DNA of 34,238 nucleotides from Synergistaceae bacterium (GCA_030533085.1 JAUNJZ010000027.1:1-34238); one strand, 5' to 3'; positions 4,280 through 31,474 are shown, numbered from the stretch's first letter. Made by a program: numbers and translations. The notes: generated from the sequence alone by a model not told the origin.

Positions 4280-4501
4280 ATGATGGCAGATGTGGAGCGA
4301 GAAGTTGTAATATGGGGTCGTATGTATGGCCGCCGCTGGAAAGCAGGCAGCTCAAATGCCTTTTATTCTCCCATCCCTCACGGCGCGATTCCGATAGTAA
4401 GATGCTGTGAGTGCGATAAAAAAATCATGATGAAGTGGATACAAAAGCGCTTGGACCGTAAGTGGCCGATAGACAAGATAAGGGCAGCGTGTGAGGCATG
4501 A
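4280..4501 (+). CDS. small hypothetical protein upstream of recombinase
   Basis: A 73-residue protein that starts with two adjacent ATG codons (4280 and 4283). It contains CCECDKK (a CxxC-like pair) and ends in a basic helix-like segment (KWIQKRLDRKWPIDKIRAACEA). Its stop overlaps the start of the tyrosine recombinase by 4 nt (ATGA), so translation of the two is probably coupled. Small partners of phage recombinases are often directionality or DNA-binding factors, but nothing here proves that. The GAGAGGT upstream is a modest Shine-Dalgarno. Confidence 0.6.
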   Translation: MMADVEREVVIWGRMYGRRWKAGSSNAFYSPIPHGAIPIVRCCECDKKIMMKWIQKRLDRKWPIDKIRAACEA

Positions 4502-5091
4502 ATCAAACTGTTCCTATCCGCACGGAACCTGAAATTCATGCTTTTCTTCGCTGCTTAAAAGGCTGGAACAGAAATTATTATATCGCAGCCCTGATTGGCA
4601 TTAATTGGGGGCTGCGGTGCAGCGATATATTGGCAATGCAAGTTGGCGATGTTATTGCCGGAGACGGAAAGCGTGTGCAAATAATAGATCGCCTTGTAGT
4701 GCGAGAAATAAAAACAGGAAAAGTAAGGCATATCTTTATAACTGATAAAATGCGGAGCGAGCTGCGCGAACACATTCGCAGTATGAAAAACTGGCGTCGC
4801 GAAACGCCTTTGGTTCTGTCGCAGAAGAAGGCGGCAGGAGGGAAGTTTAAGGCACTGTCCAGACAGCAGCTGTGGCACGTTATATCTGTCGCGGCCGCGT
4901 TAGTCGGTATCTCGGGGGAAATCGGAACTCACTCCTTGCGTAAGACGTATGCATATCAGGCATGGCGTAATGGCACACGGGTAGATGTGATACAAAAAGA
5001 ATTCGGCCATGTAAACATAGAGACAACGCATCGTTATGCTATGATTCCAATCAAAGAGCAGGAAGAAATCTATCGCAGAGTTAATTTCTAA
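4498..5091 (+). CDS. tyrosine recombinase, catalytic domain only
   Basis: This 197-residue protein has the full tyrosine recombinase signature: Arg40 in GLRCSDIL, the box II H145-S-L-R148 (HSLRKT), H171 (FGHVNIETT) and the nucleophile Y180 (HRYAMI). It lacks most of the N-terminal SAM-like core-binding domain of standard integrases, which run to about 350 residues. Such short enzymes could resolve multimers, invert DNA or act with a partner. Its location inside the genome, not at the tRNA-side end, argues that it may not be the main integrase. It overlaps the upstream small gene by 4 nt. Confidence 0.85.
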   Translation: MNQTVPIRTEPEIHAFLRCLKGWNRNYYIAALIGINWGLRCSDILAMQVGDVIAGDGKRVQIIDRLVVREIKTGKVRHIFITDKMRSELREHIRSMKNWRRETPLVLSQKKAAGGKFKALSRQQLWHVISVAAALVGISGEIGTHSLRKTYAYQAWRNGTRVDVIQKEFGHVNIETTHRYAMIPIKEQEEIYRRVNF

Positions 5092-5280: not shown

Positions 5281-5466
5281 TAGACACGGGGGCTAGTGGA
5301 AGCTATGATTGACGCCAACGCTGTGGCAGACTGGGGTCATGCCGCCTGCGGGTCCTTCTGGGGCAAAGGGGGGTTGCGGGGCTGGCGAGGCGCGGGGTTT
5401 CTGTACAAAAATTCAGGTTTGCCCCCATTTCGGTTTCATACAAAGACTAAAAGGAGGGATGCGCGG

Positions 5467-6768
5467 ATGGAAATAACTTATTTGAACCCGAGTGCATTGT
5501 TACCTTATGTCAATAATTCACGCAAACATCCGGAGAAACAAATACGGAAGCTTATGGCTTCAATTCAGGAATATGGTTTTATCGTTCCTGTTTTTATCGA
5601 CCGCAGCGGCACTATTATCAAAGGAGCAGGGGCGACGGAAGCTGCTGTACGGCTTCGTCTTGATTTAATACCATGTATATACATTGATACACTGACGGAT
5701 GCGCAAAGGCGTGCGTATATTATCGCCGACAACCGCCTTGCAGAAGATTCGGAATGGGACAAAGAAACGCTTGCTGCAGAAATGTTGCGCCTTCGCGATG
5801 ATTTCGGACTGGATCTATCCATTACTGGGTTTGAAAACCGCGAGGTGTTGGCTTTGAATCTCGACGCGGTAAATGGGATGTCCCCGGAAGATGATTTGCC
5901 AGACATAGAGCCGACTACAGTTTCGCGCGCAGGCGACCTTTGGCTTTTAGGCACACACAGCATCATATGCGGAGATTGCACTGATCCCACTACGGTCGAA
6001 CGGTTGCTTGATGGTTGTCGGCCTCACCTCATGGTGACGGATCCTCCATATGGAGTCCAGTATGATCCTAAATGGCGGATGGATAATGGACTGTCGAAAT
6101 CGAAAAGGACGGGCACTGTGTTGAATGATGATCGTGCCGACTGGCGTGAGGCATGGAAATTATTTCCGGGGGACGTTGCCTATGTATGGCATGGATCGCT
6201 GCACGGCCGCACTGTTGCAGAAAGTCTCGAAGTTAACGGTTTTGTATTACGAAGCCAAATAGTATGGATTAAACCTAATTTGATACTAAGCCGAGGAGAT
6301 ATTCATTGGCAGCACGAGGTATGCTGGTATGCCGTACGCCGCGATGAGACTGCATGCCCTGAACTGCCCGGATATTGCGGCGATGACTATCAGGCCTGTT
6401 GGTATGCAGTGCGTGAAGGCGAGGTGTCTCATTGGCAGGGATCGCGGAAGGTCTCCAGCGTTTGGGAGATAGATTTCAGCGGGCAAGATGAAAAAACGAC
6501 GCATGGCACACAAAAACCGGTCGAGTGTATGCGGCGCGCTATCCTGAATAGCTCTAAAGTAAACGAAATAATCTATGACCCCTTTGCGGGATCTGGCACG
6601 ACAGTCATTGCAGCACAATCTTGTCGGCGCAGATGCCTCGCCGTAGAGTTGAGCCCTGCATATGTAGACATGTCGGTGCGGCGCTGGCAACACTACACTT
6701 CTCAGAGTGCCATACACGCAGAATCCGGAAAAACATTCGATAAATTGAGGCGGGAGCGGCGTGAGTGA
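5467..6768 (+). CDS. ParB-like domain fused to DNA methyltransferase
   Basis: Residues 1-110 resemble the ParB/Srx nuclease-like fold (LNPSALLPYVNNSRKHPEKQIRKLMASI, then a central IIKGAGATEAA in place of the usual GHRR). Residues 190-420 form a beta-class N6/N4 methyltransferase with motif IV DPPYG (192-196) and motif I DPFAGSGT (371-378). DPPY favours adenine as the target. This ParB-methylase architecture is common in phages, where it modifies phage DNA. I chose ATG 5467 (433 residues) because AAGGAGGG (5451-5458) lies at good spacing; an in-frame GTG at 5296 would add 57 residues unlike the family. The stop overlaps the start of the small terminase gene by 1 nt. Confidence 0.88.
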   Translation: MEITYLNPSALLPYVNNSRKHPEKQIRKLMASIQEYGFIVPVFIDRSGTIIKGAGATEAAVRLRLDLIPCIYIDTLTDAQRRAYIIADNRLAEDSEWDKETLAAEMLRLRDDFGLDLSITGFENREVLALNLDAVNGMSPEDDLPDIEPTTVSRAGDLWLLGTHSIICGDCTDPTTVERLLDGCRPHLMVTDPPYGVQYDPKWRMDNGLSKSKRTGTVLNDDRADWREAWKLFPGDVAYVWHGSLHGRTVAESLEVNGFVLRSQIVWIKPNLILSRGDIHWQHEVCWYAVRRDETACPELPGYCGDDYQACWYAVREGEVSHWQGSRKVSSVWEIDFSGQDEKTTHGTQKPVECMRRAILNSSKVNEIIYDPFAGSGTTVIAAQSCRRRCLAVELSPAYVDMSVRRWQHYTSQSAIHAESGKTFDKLRRERRE

Positions 6769-7307: not shown

Positions 7308-9045
7308 CGTCAGCGAATGGGCGGATCGCAACAGGATACTCACTGCGGAGTATTCGGAATTAGCTGGGCCTTGGCGTACAGATCGCACGCCGTACCTCCG
7401 TGAGCCAATGGACAGCTTTCGCGCAGCGGGGGTAACAAAAATCTCGTTGATTTTTGCTACGCAGCTTGGTAAAACGGAATGTGAGTACAACATGATTGGC
7501 TACGCAGTAGATCAGGATCAAGGCAGCATGCTATACGTGCTGCCTACAGACATGCTTGCGAAGGATATTTCCAAAGGGCGTTTTCGGAGCTTCATACGCA
7601 ACTGCGAGGCACTGCGTGCAAAATTTGATTTTGAGCGCTCAGAAATTCAGAGGCTTTATTTCCCGGGTATGGAGATAGCTTTTGTTGGCGCAAACAGCCC
7701 GTCGCAACTCGCCTCACGCCCCGTGCGTTATGTATTTTACGACGAAGCGGACAAGTTCCCGCTGCGCGCCGGCGACGACGCCGATCCCTTCAAACTGGCC
7801 GCGGAGCGAACAAAAACATACTACCGCCGCAAAGAAGTCGAGGTGTCCAGCCCGACATATGATTCTGGGCACATATGGCGCTCGTGGCTGGAAGCGGATG
7901 TGCGCAAACGGTATTTTGTGCCTTGCCCTCATTGTAACGAAATGTTTGTGATGCGCATGAAAAATATCAAATGGCCGGAAGATATGAACGCGCTCCCGAC
8001 GTCTGCGCGCCTTAAACGGGTATCGGAGGAGGCGTGGTGCGAATGCCCCCACTGCCGCGGCTCAATATTTGACAAGCACAAACATATGATGCTGCGAGCT
8101 GGAGGCTGGCGGTCAGTTGAATATGACAAAAACGCTGAAGATTGGATAATGGTTCCTCAAAAGATAGCCCGACCACGTCATGTTGCGTATAACCTTTCAA
8201 CGATATATTCGCCGTGGAAGCGTTTTGGGGATGTGGCAAAAGAATTCCTTGAGTCGAAAGACAGACCTGAAAAGCTGATGAATTTCGTCAACGGATGGCT
8301 GGGTGAGCCGTGGGTGAATCAGGCGGCACGGATGCGCTCTGATGTAGTGCTTGAGCACCAGCTTAATTACGAGCGAGGAACGGTACCCGATGGCGCACTG
8401 ATGTTAACGGCAGCGGTCGATGTTCAGAAAGATCACTTCTGGTGGTCTATATATGCCTGGGGCGAAGGAATGACTAGCTGGCTGATAGATTTTGGTGGGG
8501 GGCCTGGGATATGCGAAACATGGGCGGACATAGAAGCTGTATTAGAGCGAGAATATCAGCGAATCAGCACCGGCGAAACATTCAGAGTGTTTTTCTCGCT
8601 TATTGACTCCGGCTTCCGTACGGAAGAAGTGTATGAATTCTGTCTGGAGCACCCCGGACTGACCTGCCCGTCCAAAGGGCTTGATGAGACCTCTGCGAAA
8701 GGCATTCCGTACCGAATTGGCGTGATTGATAAGATGCGCTATACCGATCTGAAACTATTTCTGCTGGACACGGGTTTTTATAAGGATTTTGTGTACGGCA
8801 GACTCGCGCGGCCTGCTGGCGAACGAGGGAGCCTCAACGTGTTTGCTGGCTGCTCTCGGCAATTCGCCGACCAACTCTGTTCGGAACATAAGATTACAGA
8901 GTATGACCGTAAAGGGCGTCCGAAAGAGTTATATAAACCCATTATGAGCGGCGTTGACAATCATCTCTTAGACTGCGCAGTCGGCAGCTTCGCGGCGGCG
9001 GAGATCGCCGGCGTCCGCACTTTGCGCGCCGATGAAGATGAATAG
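7219..9045 (+). CDS. terminase large subunit, GpA family
   Basis: The ATPase-nuclease motor that pumps DNA into the prohead. The protein matches the lambda GpA family: N-terminal segment SVSEWADRNRILTAEYSELAGPWRTDRTPYLREPMD, a Walker-A-like FATQLGKTE, Walker B VFYDEADKF, zinc-finger-like CPHCNEMF and CPHCRGS pairs in the middle, and C-terminal nuclease-region residues (LIDSGFRTEEVY and DNHLLDCAVG). I prefer ATG 7219 (608 residues) because GGAAAGGG lies about 7 nt upstream; an ATG at 7192 would add 9 residues. The gene overlaps the small subunit gene by 89 nt. Confidence 0.95.
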   Translation: MKSLKRTAETVSAKWTDAELRALAPPKKISVSEWADRNRILTAEYSELAGPWRTDRTPYLREPMDSFRAAGVTKISLIFATQLGKTECEYNMIGYAVDQDQGSMLYVLPTDMLAKDISKGRFRSFIRNCEALRAKFDFERSEIQRLYFPGMEIAFVGANSPSQLASRPVRYVFYDEADKFPLRAGDDADPFKLAAERTKTYYRRKEVEVSSPTYDSGHIWRSWLEADVRKRYFVPCPHCNEMFVMRMKNIKWPEDMNALPTSARLKRVSEEAWCECPHCRGSIFDKHKHMMLRAGGWRSVEYDKNAEDWIMVPQKIARPRHVAYNLSTIYSPWKRFGDVAKEFLESKDRPEKLMNFVNGWLGEPWVNQAARMRSDVVLEHQLNYERGTVPDGALMLTAAVDVQKDHFWWSIYAWGEGMTSWLIDFGGGPGICETWADIEAVLEREYQRISTGETFRVFFSLIDSGFRTEEVYEFCLEHPGLTCPSKGLDETSAKGIPYRIGVIDKMRYTDLKLFLLDTGFYKDFVYGRLARPAGERGSLNVFAGCSRQFADQLCSEHKITEYDRKGRPKELYKPIMSGVDNHLLDCAVGSFAAAEIAGVRTLRADEDE

Positions 9046-27986: not shown

Positions 27987-29117
27987 ATGCCGACCATTTT
28001 TACAAAAGATGCGCTCCGCGCCAGCGTAGAAGCCGCGACAGGCGGACACGTAACAGTGCTTTATGACGACAAAGGCTACCCGAGCTACATGTACCGCGTT
28101 CCCAAGTTCACCATAGGATACGCATTCAAGGCGCTCCTGGGCGATAGCTGGTCAACCTCCGTACTTGCCTCGCGCGAGAACGAGACCTTCCCCGCGTTCG
28201 TCAAAAACGACGTGGAGAAGAGCGAGATATTCATCGGCTGCTATAAAGGCAAAGTCTACGATGGCCGCCTCTGCTCCGTCCCCGGAGTTGACCCGACGAC
28301 ATACATCAACTTCGACAACGCCTCCAAATATGCCACAGACAAAGGCGAAGGCTGGCATATCATGTCCATCTGGGAGCGCGCAGCCCTTATCCACTGGTGC
28401 GCCGCCAACAAGATGATACCGCGCGGCAACACCAATTACGGACGTAGCCACAGCGCTACCTACGAGATAGGCGCGAGACAGGACAAAGGCAAGCCCGGCG
28501 ACGCTACCGGCAGCCCCGCCGCCAGAACACTCACAGGCTCCGGCCCCGCGTCGTGGCGTCACAACCGCGAGCAGTTCGGCATTGACGACCTCTGCGGCAA
28601 CATCTGGGAATGGATGGTCGGACTCAAACTCGATGACGGCGTCATAAAAATGATATCCGACAACTACTTTGACCAGCCCGAGGCGTCATGGCCGGGCGAT
28701 CTTGGTGCGCTCGACAGCACCGTAGGCTCAGCGGACGGAACGGGCGTGACAACCAACGGCGTGCCCAAATTCGCCAGCGCCGTAACGAAATACCTTGGAA
28801 CGCCGGGCAACGACGCAAACGAAGGCAACTATTCATCGGAGGCTACATTCACCTCGCGCGCGGCGGCTACCGGCTACACGGTACCGATAAACCTCGTACT
28901 CGCCGGAATCGCCCCCGTGGGGCTTATATCGGGCAGCTACGAGACGGACGGCACGCCGGATGGATACTTTGCCATGCGGAACTTCGGGGAGCGTTTCCCC
29001 ATCGCCGGCGGCAACTGGGGCTACGGCAGCAGCGCCGGTGTGGCGGCGCTCGACTTGCTCTACTCTCGCGCTAGCTCGGGCTACAACATCGGCGCGCGCC
29101 CCTGCTTTGTCGCGTAG
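27987..29117 (+). CDS. DGR-diversified receptor-binding protein (FGE/C-type-lectin-like)
   Basis: This 376-residue protein is the variable protein of the retroelement. The central region (about 95-230) has formylglycine-generating-enzyme/sulfatase-modifying features of the CLec fold: GWHIMSIWERAALIHWCAAN, GIDDLCGNIWEWMVGL. The C-terminus has MRNFGERFPIAGGNW...NIGARPCFVA, as in DGR target proteins such as Mtd- and TvpA-like CLec proteins. The last 40 residues coincide with the variable repeat. In the present version the diversified residues are Gly, Tyr, Ser, Asp and Leu at positions that are Asn in the template. By position it is probably carried at the fibre or baseplate tip and binds a host surface receptor. 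There is GAGGAGGAAT upstream. Confidence 0.93.
   Translation: MPTIFTKDALRASVEAATGGHVTVLYDDKGYPSYMYRVPKFTIGYAFKALLGDSWSTSVLASRENETFPAFVKNDVEKSEIFIGCYKGKVYDGRLCSVPGVDPTTYINFDNASKYATDKGEGWHIMSIWERAALIHWCAANKMIPRGNTNYGRSHSATYEIGARQDKGKPGDATGSPAARTLTGSGPASWRHNREQFGIDDLCGNIWEWMVGLKLDDGVIKMISDNYFDQPEASWPGDLGALDSTVGSADGTGVTTNGVPKFASAVTKYLGTPGNDANEGNYSSEATFTSRAAATGYTVPINLVLAGIAPVGLISGSYETDGTPDGYFAMRNFGERFPIAGGNWGYGSSAGVAALDLLYSRASSGYNIGARPCFVA
28992..29106 (+). repeat. DGR variable repeat (VR)
   Basis: These 115 bp align without gaps to the template repeat at 29581-29695, with 12 mismatches, all at adenines of the template. The repeat ends 8 bp before the stop codon. Its 3' end is GC-rich and includes the self-complementary GGCGCGCGCC (29091-29100), a candidate initiation-of-mutagenic-homing region. 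Confidence 0.95.
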
Positions 29118-29126
29118 CGACGTGGC

Positions 29127-29177
29127 AATCCGATAATCCGAAAAATCCGTAATCCGAAGGTTTTGGTTTTTAATCCG
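29127..29177 (+). repeat. five AATCCG direct repeats between VR and avd
   Basis: AATCCG occurs at 29127, 29135, 29144, 29151 and 29172 in the short gap after the target gene. The spacing is irregular (7-21 bp). No Shine-Dalgarno for the following Avd gene is obvious in this stretch. Confidence 0.75.
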
Positions 29178-29179
29178 AA

Positions 29180-29539
29180 ATGGCAGAAGAAAGATTGAGG
29201 ATACTCGCCTCTGTTGAGCGCATGGAGGCGTGGCTGCAAAAATCATTGGAACGCGCGCCGAAGTATATACGATTCCCTGTGTATGCGCAGATGAAAGCGA
29301 GCGCAAGGGAAATGCGCAGACTGATTATCGAGTGCAACTTCGCGCGCGAAAAATCTCCGTACTTTACAAAAATAGATATGGAGATCGCCCTGCTCAAATC
29401 CGACGCTCACGTAATGATGGAATCGCGGCTCATCACACCCGGAGAATTTAAGGTGTGGAGCGAGCACATCAGCAAAGTCGGTTCGCAGCTTGGAGCGTGG
29501 ATAAAGGCGATAAACGCAGCGAGAAATCAAAAGCGGTAA
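29180..29539 (+). CDS. avd: DGR accessory protein Avd-like
   Basis: A 119-residue, mostly helical, basic protein (RLRILASVERMEAWLQKSLERAPKYIRFPVYAQMKASAREMRRLIIECNFAR...FTKIDMEIALLKSDAHVMMESRLITPGEFKVWSEHISKVGSQLGAWIKA). It matches the four-helix-bundle Avd family in size, composition and layout. Avd forms a pentamer that binds the reverse transcriptase and template RNA and is needed for mutagenic homing. The gene lies between the target and TR, the usual order. The ATG at 29180 has no recognisable Shine-Dalgarno. Internal starts are possible but would cut the first helix. Confidence 0.85.
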   Translation: MAEERLRILASVERMEAWLQKSLERAPKYIRFPVYAQMKASAREMRRLIIECNFAREKSPYFTKIDMEIALLKSDAHVMMESRLITPGEFKVWSEHISKVGSQLGAWIKAINAARNQKR

Positions 29540-29580
29540 TACGGAATAAAAAATCGGGGCGAGGCTGAATCTACTCCCGT

Positions 29581-29695
29581 CGTTTCCCCATCGCCGGCGG
29601 CAACTGGAACAACGGCAGCAACGCCGGTGTGGCGGCGCTCAACTTGAACAACTCTCGCGCTAACTCGAACAACAACATCGGCGCGCGCCCCTGCT
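29581..29695 (+). repeat. DGR template repeat (TR)
   Basis: Invariant 115-bp donor copy in non-coding DNA between avd and the reverse transcriptase. Read in the VR frame it would encode eleven Asn (AAC) codons. It has 25 adenines; 12 (29608, 29609, 29611, 29621, 29641, 29647, 29648, 29650, 29663, 29668, 29669, 29671) differ in VR and no other base differs. AAC codons cannot mutate to stops when only their adenines change, which explains the choice. Confidence 0.96.
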
Positions 29696-29851
29696 CTCGC
29701 CCGAAGTCAGATACCGCACGGCTACGGCTATGCGGTCAGCACCGGGCAAAAGGAGCCTCGCTCCATCCCCGATGAAAAGGGAAAAGATATACGTATCCCC
29801 GCCTCAAGTAAGCAATGAAAGCGGCGGGGATTTTAATTTGAAGGTGAGAAG
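29696..29851 (+). ncRNA. structured 3' part of the DGR template RNA (putative)
   Basis: No gene is seen between TR and the reverse transcriptase. The stretch can form three hairpins: ACCGCA/TGCGGT (29713-29718 with 29731-29736), GGAGC/GCTCC (29752-29756 with 29760-29764) and a 9-bp ATCCCCGCC/GGCGGGGAT (29795-29803 with 29823-29831), the last followed by TTTT just ahead of the reverse transcriptase start. In characterised DGRs the RNA extends from TR into this region and is bound by RT and Avd. The last hairpin could also act as an attenuator. Confidence 0.6.
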
Positions 29852-30892
29852 ATGCCAAAAACTGTAGGCGGTATATGGCGGCAGGTGATTGAATTTGATT
29901 CCCTCTACGCAGCCTTCCTGCGCGCGCAGAAGAGACTCAAAGATGTTGAGAGCGTCTTGCGCTATAGGGCCAACCTTGAAGAGAATCTTGTAACCCTCCA
30001 GAATGAACTCATCTGGCACACATGGCGGCCAGCGCCGCCGCGTAACTTTGAGGTGTACGAGCCAAAGAGGCGCGACATAGCGGCCCCGGCGTTTCGGGAC
30101 CGTGTGGCGCACCAAGCTCTGGTCGCCGCAATTGAGCCGCACTTCGAGCGGCGATTTATCTCGGCAAGCTACGCCTGCCGCGCAGGCATGGGTACCCACG
30201 CCGCCGTAGCGAAAGCACAGTCTATGCTGCGCGAAGCGCGCGCCATGTGGGGCGATAGGGTCTGGGTGCTTAAATGCGACATCAAAAGCTATTTCAGGAG
30301 CATCGACCATGAGACGCTGAAAGGAATCAATCGCCGAACGATAAGCGATCCGGATGTGCTCTGGATGATGGACAGAATCATCGACCACGGAGGCGAGGGC
30401 GACAAGGGGCTGGACATAGGCGCTCTCACAAGCCAACTGGAGGCGAATGTCTACGCCGACCAGCTTGACCACGTAATCAAGGACAAATGGGGAGTGAAAT
30501 ACTACGCTCGCTATATGGATGATTTCGTGATAATCAGCGGGGAGAAAGAGAGGCTGCGCGTCATGCTTTGGGCTATCGGGGATTACGTGGAAAAGATTCT
30601 GAAGCTGCGGCTGAATCCGAAAACCGGCATACTCGCGGCAACGCAGGGGCTTGACTTCTGCGGATACCGTATATGGGCGACACATATGCTGCCGAGGAAG
30701 CGCAATACGCGCCGGATACATAAGCGGCTGCGCCGCATGGCAAGGCTTTATGCCTCCGGACAGCTCGATATCCAAAAGGCGGAGCAGGTGATTGCCTCAT
30801 ACCTCGGGTACATGCAGCACTGTCAGGGATTCAAGACGGCGGCGGCCTTTCTGGAGGAGCTTGTATTCAGCAGAGGGAGGCAGGAGGCATGA
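29852..30892 (+). CDS. DGR reverse transcriptase
   Basis: A 346-residue RT of the DGR clade. Motifs: R(N)LVTLQNEL...W, IAAPAFRDRVAHQAL (around 75-90), the first catalytic Asp in KCDIKSYFRSID (D143), the DGR-diagnostic IGALTSQ (189-195), catalytic YMDD (221-224) and the C-terminal GLDFCGYRIWATHMLPRKRNTRR thumb-like segment. DGR RTs carry IGxxxSQ in place of the usual QGxxxSP of group II intron RTs, and this change is associated with low fidelity at adenines. No endonuclease or maturase domain is attached. The RT synthesises mutated cDNA from TR RNA that replaces VR. It overlaps the next small gene by 4 nt. Confidence 0.96.
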   Translation: MPKTVGGIWRQVIEFDSLYAAFLRAQKRLKDVESVLRYRANLEENLVTLQNELIWHTWRPAPPRNFEVYEPKRRDIAAPAFRDRVAHQALVAAIEPHFERRFISASYACRAGMGTHAAVAKAQSMLREARAMWGDRVWVLKCDIKSYFRSIDHETLKGINRRTISDPDVLWMMDRIIDHGGEGDKGLDIGALTSQLEANVYADQLDHVIKDKWGVKYYARYMDDFVIISGEKERLRVMLWAIGDYVEKILKLRLNPKTGILAATQGLDFCGYRIWATHMLPRKRNTRRIHKRLRRMARLYASGQLDIQKAEQVIASYLGYMQHCQGFKTAAAFLEELVFSRGRQEA

Positions 30893-31092
30893 AGAGACTG
30901 GAAAAGCTGGCCGAGGAAGAAATATTCAACCTCACATTCTGCTGCTCCGCGAAGCTCTCCGGCAATCCGGGGCGCAAGGATGTGATGGACGCCATAAAAG
31001 ATTATCGTAAAATCGCCAGCATTGCCTCATACATGGCGGGGGTTCTTGAGATGACCGCAGTCAACCCGTCGGATATAGAAATACCATACTGA
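30889..31092 (+). CDS. small hypothetical protein coupled to the DGR reverse transcriptase
   Basis: A 67-residue, mainly helical, soluble protein (MKRLEKLAEEEIFNLTFCCSAKLSGNPGRKDVMDAIKDYRKIASIASYMAGVLEMTAVNPSD). Its ATG overlaps the RT stop (ATGA) and GGAGG lies upstream, so it is translated with the RT. It is not a known DGR accessory type that I recognise (not HRDC or MSL). It may be an accessory of the retroelement or the first gene of the following operon. Confidence 0.65.
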   Translation: MKRLEKLAEEEIFNLTFCCSAKLSGNPGRKDVMDAIKDYRKIASIASYMAGVLEMTAVNPSDIEIPY

Positions 31093-31114: not shown

Positions 31115-31474
31115 ATGAATGATATCTGCATTGCAGCCTTTTGGGCGTTGAGCGCTTTAATTACGCTCCTGTTCGCCGCTTTTATGCACGAGCTGGGGCA
31201 CGGTTTGGCCGCCGCCGCTTTTGGCGAGCTGATAACGTTTCGCTTTGACTGGGGGCGGCTATGGAAAATACCCGTCCCGCGGCTGCTTTGGAAAATGCCG
31301 ATTTTGCCGCCTGAGCAGCAAAGATGTATTGCCGCGGCAGGCTTCGGGCTGGAATTTCTCATTGTGCCTATAATGTTATATTTGGGTATATATATTTATA
31401 TATTTATAGCCTTTGCTCACCTGCTGCTTTACCCCTTTTACGCAGGCGACGCCTCTGATTTTCGATTTTTTTGA
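31115..31474 (+). CDS. small HELGH-motif membrane protein, M50-like metalloprotease candidate
   Basis: A 119-residue membrane protein with a first membrane segment (5-24) directly followed by the zinc motif HELGH (25-29). A second hydrophobic stretch (about 75-105) leads to LLYPFYAGDASDF, which could supply the third zinc ligand seen in M50 (site-2-like) proteases. The usual N-x-x-P-x-x-x-L-D-G signature is not exact, so activity is uncertain. Full site-2 proteases are several times larger. The gene has GGGAAGGA upstream, sits between the DGR and the lysis genes, and its role in a phage is unknown. Confidence 0.65.
   Translation: MNDICIAAFWALSALITLLFAAFMHELGHGLAAAAFGELITFRFDWGRLWKIPVPRLLWKMPILPPEQQRCIAAAGFGLEFLIVPIMLYLGIYIYIFIAFAHLLLYPFYAGDASDFRFF

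Follow-up and report, generated by a model that had tools for sequence, protein, structure and literature searches.

The 34,238-nucleotide (nt) contig of a Synergistaceae bacterium analyzed here (GCA_030533085.1, JAUNJZ010000027.1:1–34238; hereafter the window) is contig 38 of a 76-contig, 2.63-Mb genome, and carries at 27987–31092 a complete diversity-generating retroelement (DGR) in the order target gene, Avd gene, template repeat (TR), structured RNA and reverse transcriptase (RT) gene. By itself, the retroelement is ordinary, with a layout of the BPP-1 type. What appears to be new is a feature common to many known DGRs and not special to the window: a short array of regularly spaced units 3′ of the variable repeat (VR). 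We consider it quite probable that the whole is best explained as a prophage DGR of the BPP-1 type in which the array marks the target site.

The longest repeat within 26.5–32.5 kb of the window is the VR/TR pair (Table 1). Over 115 nt, its two copies show 12 mismatches, each at a TR adenine (A>G at seven positions, A>T at four and A>C at one), and the probability that 12 of 12 mismatches fall on the 25 adenines of the TR under random placement is approximately 8e-10. The first mismatch at a position other than adenine, 29107, marks the end of the homology. The 12 changes are confined to codon positions 1 and 2; the TR holds 10 AAC codons, each of which can yield 15 possible residues and never a stop, and the VR could in principle encode approximately 5e14 stop-free protein variants. 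Neither a further VR nor a second copy of the TR/VR pair was found in the window's own genome, and IMG/VR held no further copy. The VR may still be diversified by the window DGR at the present day.

Most relatives of the window DGR carry runs of NAATCTG 3′ of the VR, which were seen while we were seeking the hairpin known from BPP-1. We define an array as at least four like trinucleotides (CTG, ATG, TTG or CCG) spaced 7–9 nt apart, at most 60 nt 3′ of the VR and absent 3′ of the TR. Such an array, situated directly 3′ of the VR and overlooked in the initial annotation of the window, is formed by four AATCCG units with spacings of 8, 9 and 7 nt within 30 nt; a detached fifth AATCCG is found at 29172, and none is present 3′ of the TR.

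To score the relatives, the pattern was fixed on a first set of loci as a chain of CTG at 6–9-nt spacing in the 60 nt that follow the VR. In this discovery set, at least four CTG are found in 14 of the 38 canonical loci. In a separately fetched IMG/VR set, at least four CTG are present 3′ of the VR in 32 of 70 loci versus 0.05 expected from dinucleotide shuffles, and 3′ of the TR none of the 70 has even three. After both sets had been collapsed to 88 clusters (dereplicated loci of the window's layout), at least four CTG were counted in 42, as compared with 0.04 expected from 21,956 control windows, and CTG ranked first of all 64 trinucleotides in the 3′-of-VR test. Consecutive CTG are spaced by 7 nt (94 cases) or 8 nt (63 cases), other spacings being rare, and the CTG arrays comprise four units in 35 cases and five in 6. 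If CTG, ATG, TTG and CCG are all allowed, arrays are found in 60 of the 88 clusters versus 1.5 in shuffles, and in none of the 88 on the 3′ side of the TR. Where a GC-rich hairpin of the GATA/GGTA/GAGA type is present, it mostly begins 2–3 nt after the last unit. Among VR records of the first set in which the TR does not lie just upstream of the RT gene, a CTG array was found in 0 of 53. A scan of genome contigs with a single RT gave no relatives, whereas scanning with RT alignments did; these alignments lean towards the window's clade, and array-bearing loci supplied the sequences for the second; the share of loci with arrays is accordingly valid for this clade and not for all DGRs. The TR/VR finder requires a minimum length of 60 nt and a minimum of six adenine changes, and weakly diversified systems are missed.

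The array belongs to the VR. Both of the two-VR phages that were found, each with a single TR (L204 and L215, the latter on the same contig as L136), have a four-CTG array at every VR. In L204 the second VR and its array are located approximately 5 kb beyond the RT gene and are not followed by avd, and in L215 the two arrays are identical at 12 of 12 CTG letters and at 9 of 18 other array positions. A coding or codon effect as the origin of the array is ruled out, because at least three units lie at or beyond the stop codon in 38 of 40 loci; the arrays are mostly 3′ of the stop codon and are not 3-periodic.

The type of unit tracks the RT tree: CCG is confined to the window and its nearest tree neighbor (L033, RT 65% identical), ATG occurs in one clade, and CTG is used by most others. 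Moreover, the window's genome contains a second DGR (contig 46, L031, 4294–5026) with its own TR/VR pair (14 adenine changes and one other) and an RT 45% identical to the window RT, and its array is of the CTG type. Because unit type and RT phylogeny go together and the two DGRs of one genome differ (CCG and CTG), we favor a reader encoded by the DGR rather than by the host. Avd is a ring-shaped pentamer, and it is an attractive guess that the pentamer contacts one unit every 7–8 nt. The alternative, which we regard as unlikely, is a host factor that reads CTG as a site of DnaG primase initiation or replication-protein loading and thereby keeps the target single-stranded for cDNA capture. The preference of E. 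coli primase for CTG in its template would fit this proposal. Also in keeping with it, BPP-1 editing favors targets in which the strand complementary to the cDNA is the lagging-strand template (PMC12875486). In the same study, however, altering DnaG dose or recruitment made no difference in BPP-1, a result that its authors consider inconclusive, and a single host reader is hard to reconcile with two unit types in one genome or with units that follow RT lineage.

The structured RNA between the TR and the RT gene, which the initial annotation had also missed, matches Rfam RT-14 (RF02921) over its full length (model positions 1–144) and above the gathering threshold, starting at the last two bases of the TR and stopping just 5′ of the RT gene. 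The start of the match coincides with the TR end in L033 and L035 as well. In BPP-1, the spacer RNA (Sp) downstream of the TR recruits RT-Avd and primes cDNA synthesis from an internal adenine (PMC12875486). By its position, the RT-14 RNA of the window corresponds to the Sp segment, that is, to the 3′ portion of the template RNA of the DGR, although Rfam files the family as a small RNA (sRNA); its description may need to be changed, the family coinciding with Sp in the window, L033, L035 and L038. In L038 (G057), an RT-14 RNA at 7587–7733 lies beside a truncated RT (approximately 148 residues matched), with no TR/VR pair found; this locus is a decayed DGR.

Helix P1 of the window RNA is formed by 29699–29703 and 29743–29747. 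RNAalifold on a MAFFT alignment of Sp returned only seven pairs, with P1 misaligned, and P1 was therefore assessed by partner swapping: across 59 loci, it pairs better with its own partner strand (mean 5.34 bp) than with the partners of other loci (4.13 ± 0.12 bp). A CAAAAGG run begins at 29747, and the adenines at 29748–29751, just 3′ of P1, are natural candidates for the priming adenines and probably serve as such by analogy with BPP-1. The BPP-1 priming site, A56, likewise lies just past the equivalent helix by count on L120. In the clade with ATG arrays (L142, L160, L171, L128 and L137), the Sp sequence after P1 is CCTTYGGGGC-like in place of AAAAGGA, so that the presumed priming region has changed in the same lineage.

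Could the locus be a fossil without present activity? Decayed relatives are known (the truncated RT of G057 and, in G036, an RT with a stop), but in the window all open reading frames (ORFs) are intact, the catalytic motifs are kept, the VR is open and free of changes other than at adenines, and the Sp RNA exceeds the Rfam cut-off. We consider decay improbable, if only slightly more so than a host reader.

Less probable still is that the array is an mRNA element for translation or decay, unrelated to retrohoming. It usually lies between the target stop codon and avd, as such an element might, but second VRs also have arrays, and that of L204 is found past the RT gene. An RNA–DNA contact between the array and conserved CAG loops of Sp, guiding the complex to the VR, is the least probable of these alternatives and was rejected: Sp contains two conserved CAG complementary to CTG, but loci of the ATG, TTG and CCG types retain them, and compensatory change is absent.

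Compared with BPP-1 (mtd-avd-TR-brt), the window shares the gene order, Avd, core TR/VR differences restricted to adenine and a structured TR–RT spacer. The two RTs nevertheless lie on distant branches, and the window target is of the TaqVP type. Further, the window lacks the 8-bp GAAA hairpin of BPP-1, and its four AATCCG units stand where BPP-1 has the 21-bp initiation of mutagenic homing (IMH) element and the hairpin. In BPP-1, this 21-bp element has five mismatches to the TR and sets the direction of transfer, and the hairpin is the only conserved feature named 3′ of the VR (PMC3240598). The BPP-1 VR end reads ACCACCTGATTCTTG and the TR end CCCATCACCTTCTTG, in which the central CTG is lost. 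Read into the hairpin, the VR ends as TCTGTGACCACCTGATTCTTG-AGTA-hairpin, with NTG-like units 8 and 7 nt apart, 4 nt 5′ of the stem. The 21-bp IMH element may thus represent a short or reduced array, broken in the TR.

Also comparable are the DGRs of Bacillus phage BalMu-1, Pseudoalteromonas phage ACA1, Aeromonas phage phiARM81mr and Faecalibacterium phage FP_Lagaffe, in which contractile or tail-fiber targets are followed by avd, TR and RT as in the window. Their RTs are approximately 32–40% identical to the window RT, and all four have an NTG array 3′ of the VR, of the CTG or TTG type (three CTG in BalMu-1; TTG in ACA1 and phiARM81mr) as compared with CCG in the window, in most cases followed by a GATA/GGTA hairpin.

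Based on these observations, we propose the following sequence of events. As carried over from BPP-1, the TR-Sp RNA would fold and bind RT-Avd. Synthesis would be self-primed from an adenine just 3′ of P1, probably within 29748–29751, with copying errors at adenines, and the cDNA would replace the VR in the C-type-lectin tip of the tail protein. The run of NTG or CCG units at 7–9-nt spacing 3′ of the VR, together with the GC-rich hairpin where present, would act as the target-site element by which the DGR's own complex distinguishes the recipient repeat from its near-identical donor. The TR being without an array, information would move from TR to VR only, and the BPP-1 IMH would be the short form of the same element. 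Tentatively, and with somewhat less than even confidence, we extend this proposal to Avd-class DGRs at large: their target sites may be marked by a hitherto undescribed array of four to five 7–8-nt units, whose code would have switched (CTG, ATG, TTG, CCG) with RT lineage. The DGR's own complex would read this array, which would dictate the direction from TR to VR, and the BPP-1 IMH 21-mer would be a reduced form of it.

Several points weigh against the array as a target-site mark. First, about a third of the canonical loci, including branches near BPP-1, are without a clear array, which is therefore dispensable for some DGRs. Second, the two-VR test comprises only two phages, and the likeness to BPP-1 consists of three loose units (GTG-8-CTG-7-TTG) that chance could have produced. 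Third, the GC-rich GRNA-loop hairpin that is common, although not universal, in DGRs was not seen 3′ of the window VR; a small inverted repeat over the stop codon is at most a weak candidate for a counterpart of the BPP-1 hairpin, since it folds no better than shuffles (z −0.74). Finally, the proposed function of the array is drawn from sequence comparison, and its novelty is provisional: no array-like feature was found in the literature on DGR target sites, of which our coverage is incomplete.

The window is a contractile-tail prophage, as profile searches for its sheath, tape measure, baseplate and Tail_P2_I genes show. The genes run in the order terminase, portal, head, sheath, tape measure, baseplate, PAAR, Tail_P2_I, collar fiber, target and lysis genes. 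The initial annotation had read the locus as a complete DGR of such a phage, with its parts ordered as in known DGRs and a C-type-lectin-like, VR-bearing target as the last gene of the tail-fiber block; all of this is borne out, each part being found where it had been placed (Table 1). Because the target closes the tail-fiber block, the DGR would naturally be taken to diversify receptor binding. That the system was undescribed proved correct for this particular locus but not for its layout, which is ordinary among DGRs. No near-identical phage was found among the phage records searched.

Homology between the target and Thermus aquaticus TaqVP (PDB 5vf4; 2e-62) extends along its whole length (residues 6–375), and the FGE-sulfatase family of Pfam matches at the cut-off score. 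TaqVP is a DGR variable protein of the formylglycine-generating enzyme (FGE) subtype of the C-type-lectin fold, likewise with a C-terminal VR (PMC6328139). By homology to this solved structure, the window target is assigned a fold of the C-type-lectin type, with the VR at the 3′ end of its gene; the VR residues of the two proteins differ.

The RT, for which DGR-type motifs had been reported, was placed in a tree that comprised 88 DGR RTs and, from the same taxon, three RTs of group II-like type. It falls on the DGR side with 100% support against the group II-like RTs in the Shimodaira–Hasegawa-like approximate likelihood ratio test; a position outside the DGR clade, which the initial annotation had named as a refutation, was not seen. 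Its best match of solved structure by sequence is 8ub7, which we take to be the BPP-1 bRT complex, together with eight further entries titled "Reverse transcriptase", ahead of group II intron RTs. The small gene coupled to the RT had also been counted as part of the system. This 67-aa ORF probably lies outside the DGR, because it has kin in one close relative only (L012/L034) and does not match any small ORF that follows the RT in other DGRs.

Table 1. Features of the window DGR (all on the strand shown; positions from the first nucleotide of the window)
Feature	Position	Strand	Evidence or remarks
DGR target gene, 376 aa; FGE/C-type-lectin-type variable protein, presumed receptor-binding tail protein	27987–29117	+	PHROG 2889, 9e-106; PDB 5vf4
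VR	28992–29106	+	Last 38 target codons except three and the stop; 12 mismatches to TR, all at TR adenines
Small inverted repeat GTCGC-GTA-GCGAC over stop codon	29109–29121	+	5 bp, 3-nt loop; 6 bp in L033
VR-flanking array, four AATCCG units (29127, 29135, 29144, 29151); proposed target-site mark	29127–29156	+	Same place as CTG arrays of relatives
Avd (accessory variability determinant), 119 aa	29180–29539	+	Pfam bAvd, 5e-10; PHROG Avd, 2e-21
TR	29581–29695	+	115 nt, intergenic, downstream copy
Sp RNA (Rfam RT-14, RF02921)	29694–29833	+	60.4 bits versus gathering 48.1; fold z −3.5; P1 partner-swap test
DGR RT, 346 aa	29852–30892	+	IGALTSQ and YMDD; PHROG reverse transcriptase, 8e-122; PDB 8ub7, 2e-43; tree
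67-aa ORF	30889–31092	+	4-nt overlap with RT stop; no Pfam or PHROG match

A separate family of small proteins, unrelated to the 67-aa ORF, is encoded immediately downstream of the RT gene in marine and Aeromonas-type DGR phages (L051, L057, L059, L277, L278 and L280) and is a possible DGR accessory gene. Elsewhere in the window, replication genes flank a short integrase-like ORF (4498–5091), and adjoining the terminase is a ParB-like/DNA methyltransferase fusion (5296–6768). Upstream of a glucosaminidase-type gene, a 119-aa membrane-type ORF with a HELGH motif (31115–31474) shows a weak likeness to M50/DUF3267, under the cut-offs, and has no counterpart in the syntenic stretch of G029.

How the recipient repeat is told from the donor, and how the target is found, are among the least understood steps of retrohoming. 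The array offers a short, widespread and lineage-specific handle on these steps that is open to mutation, swapping and transplanting. It can aid the finding of further DGR target genes, and it may provide one of the elements still needed to direct DGRs to genes of choice.

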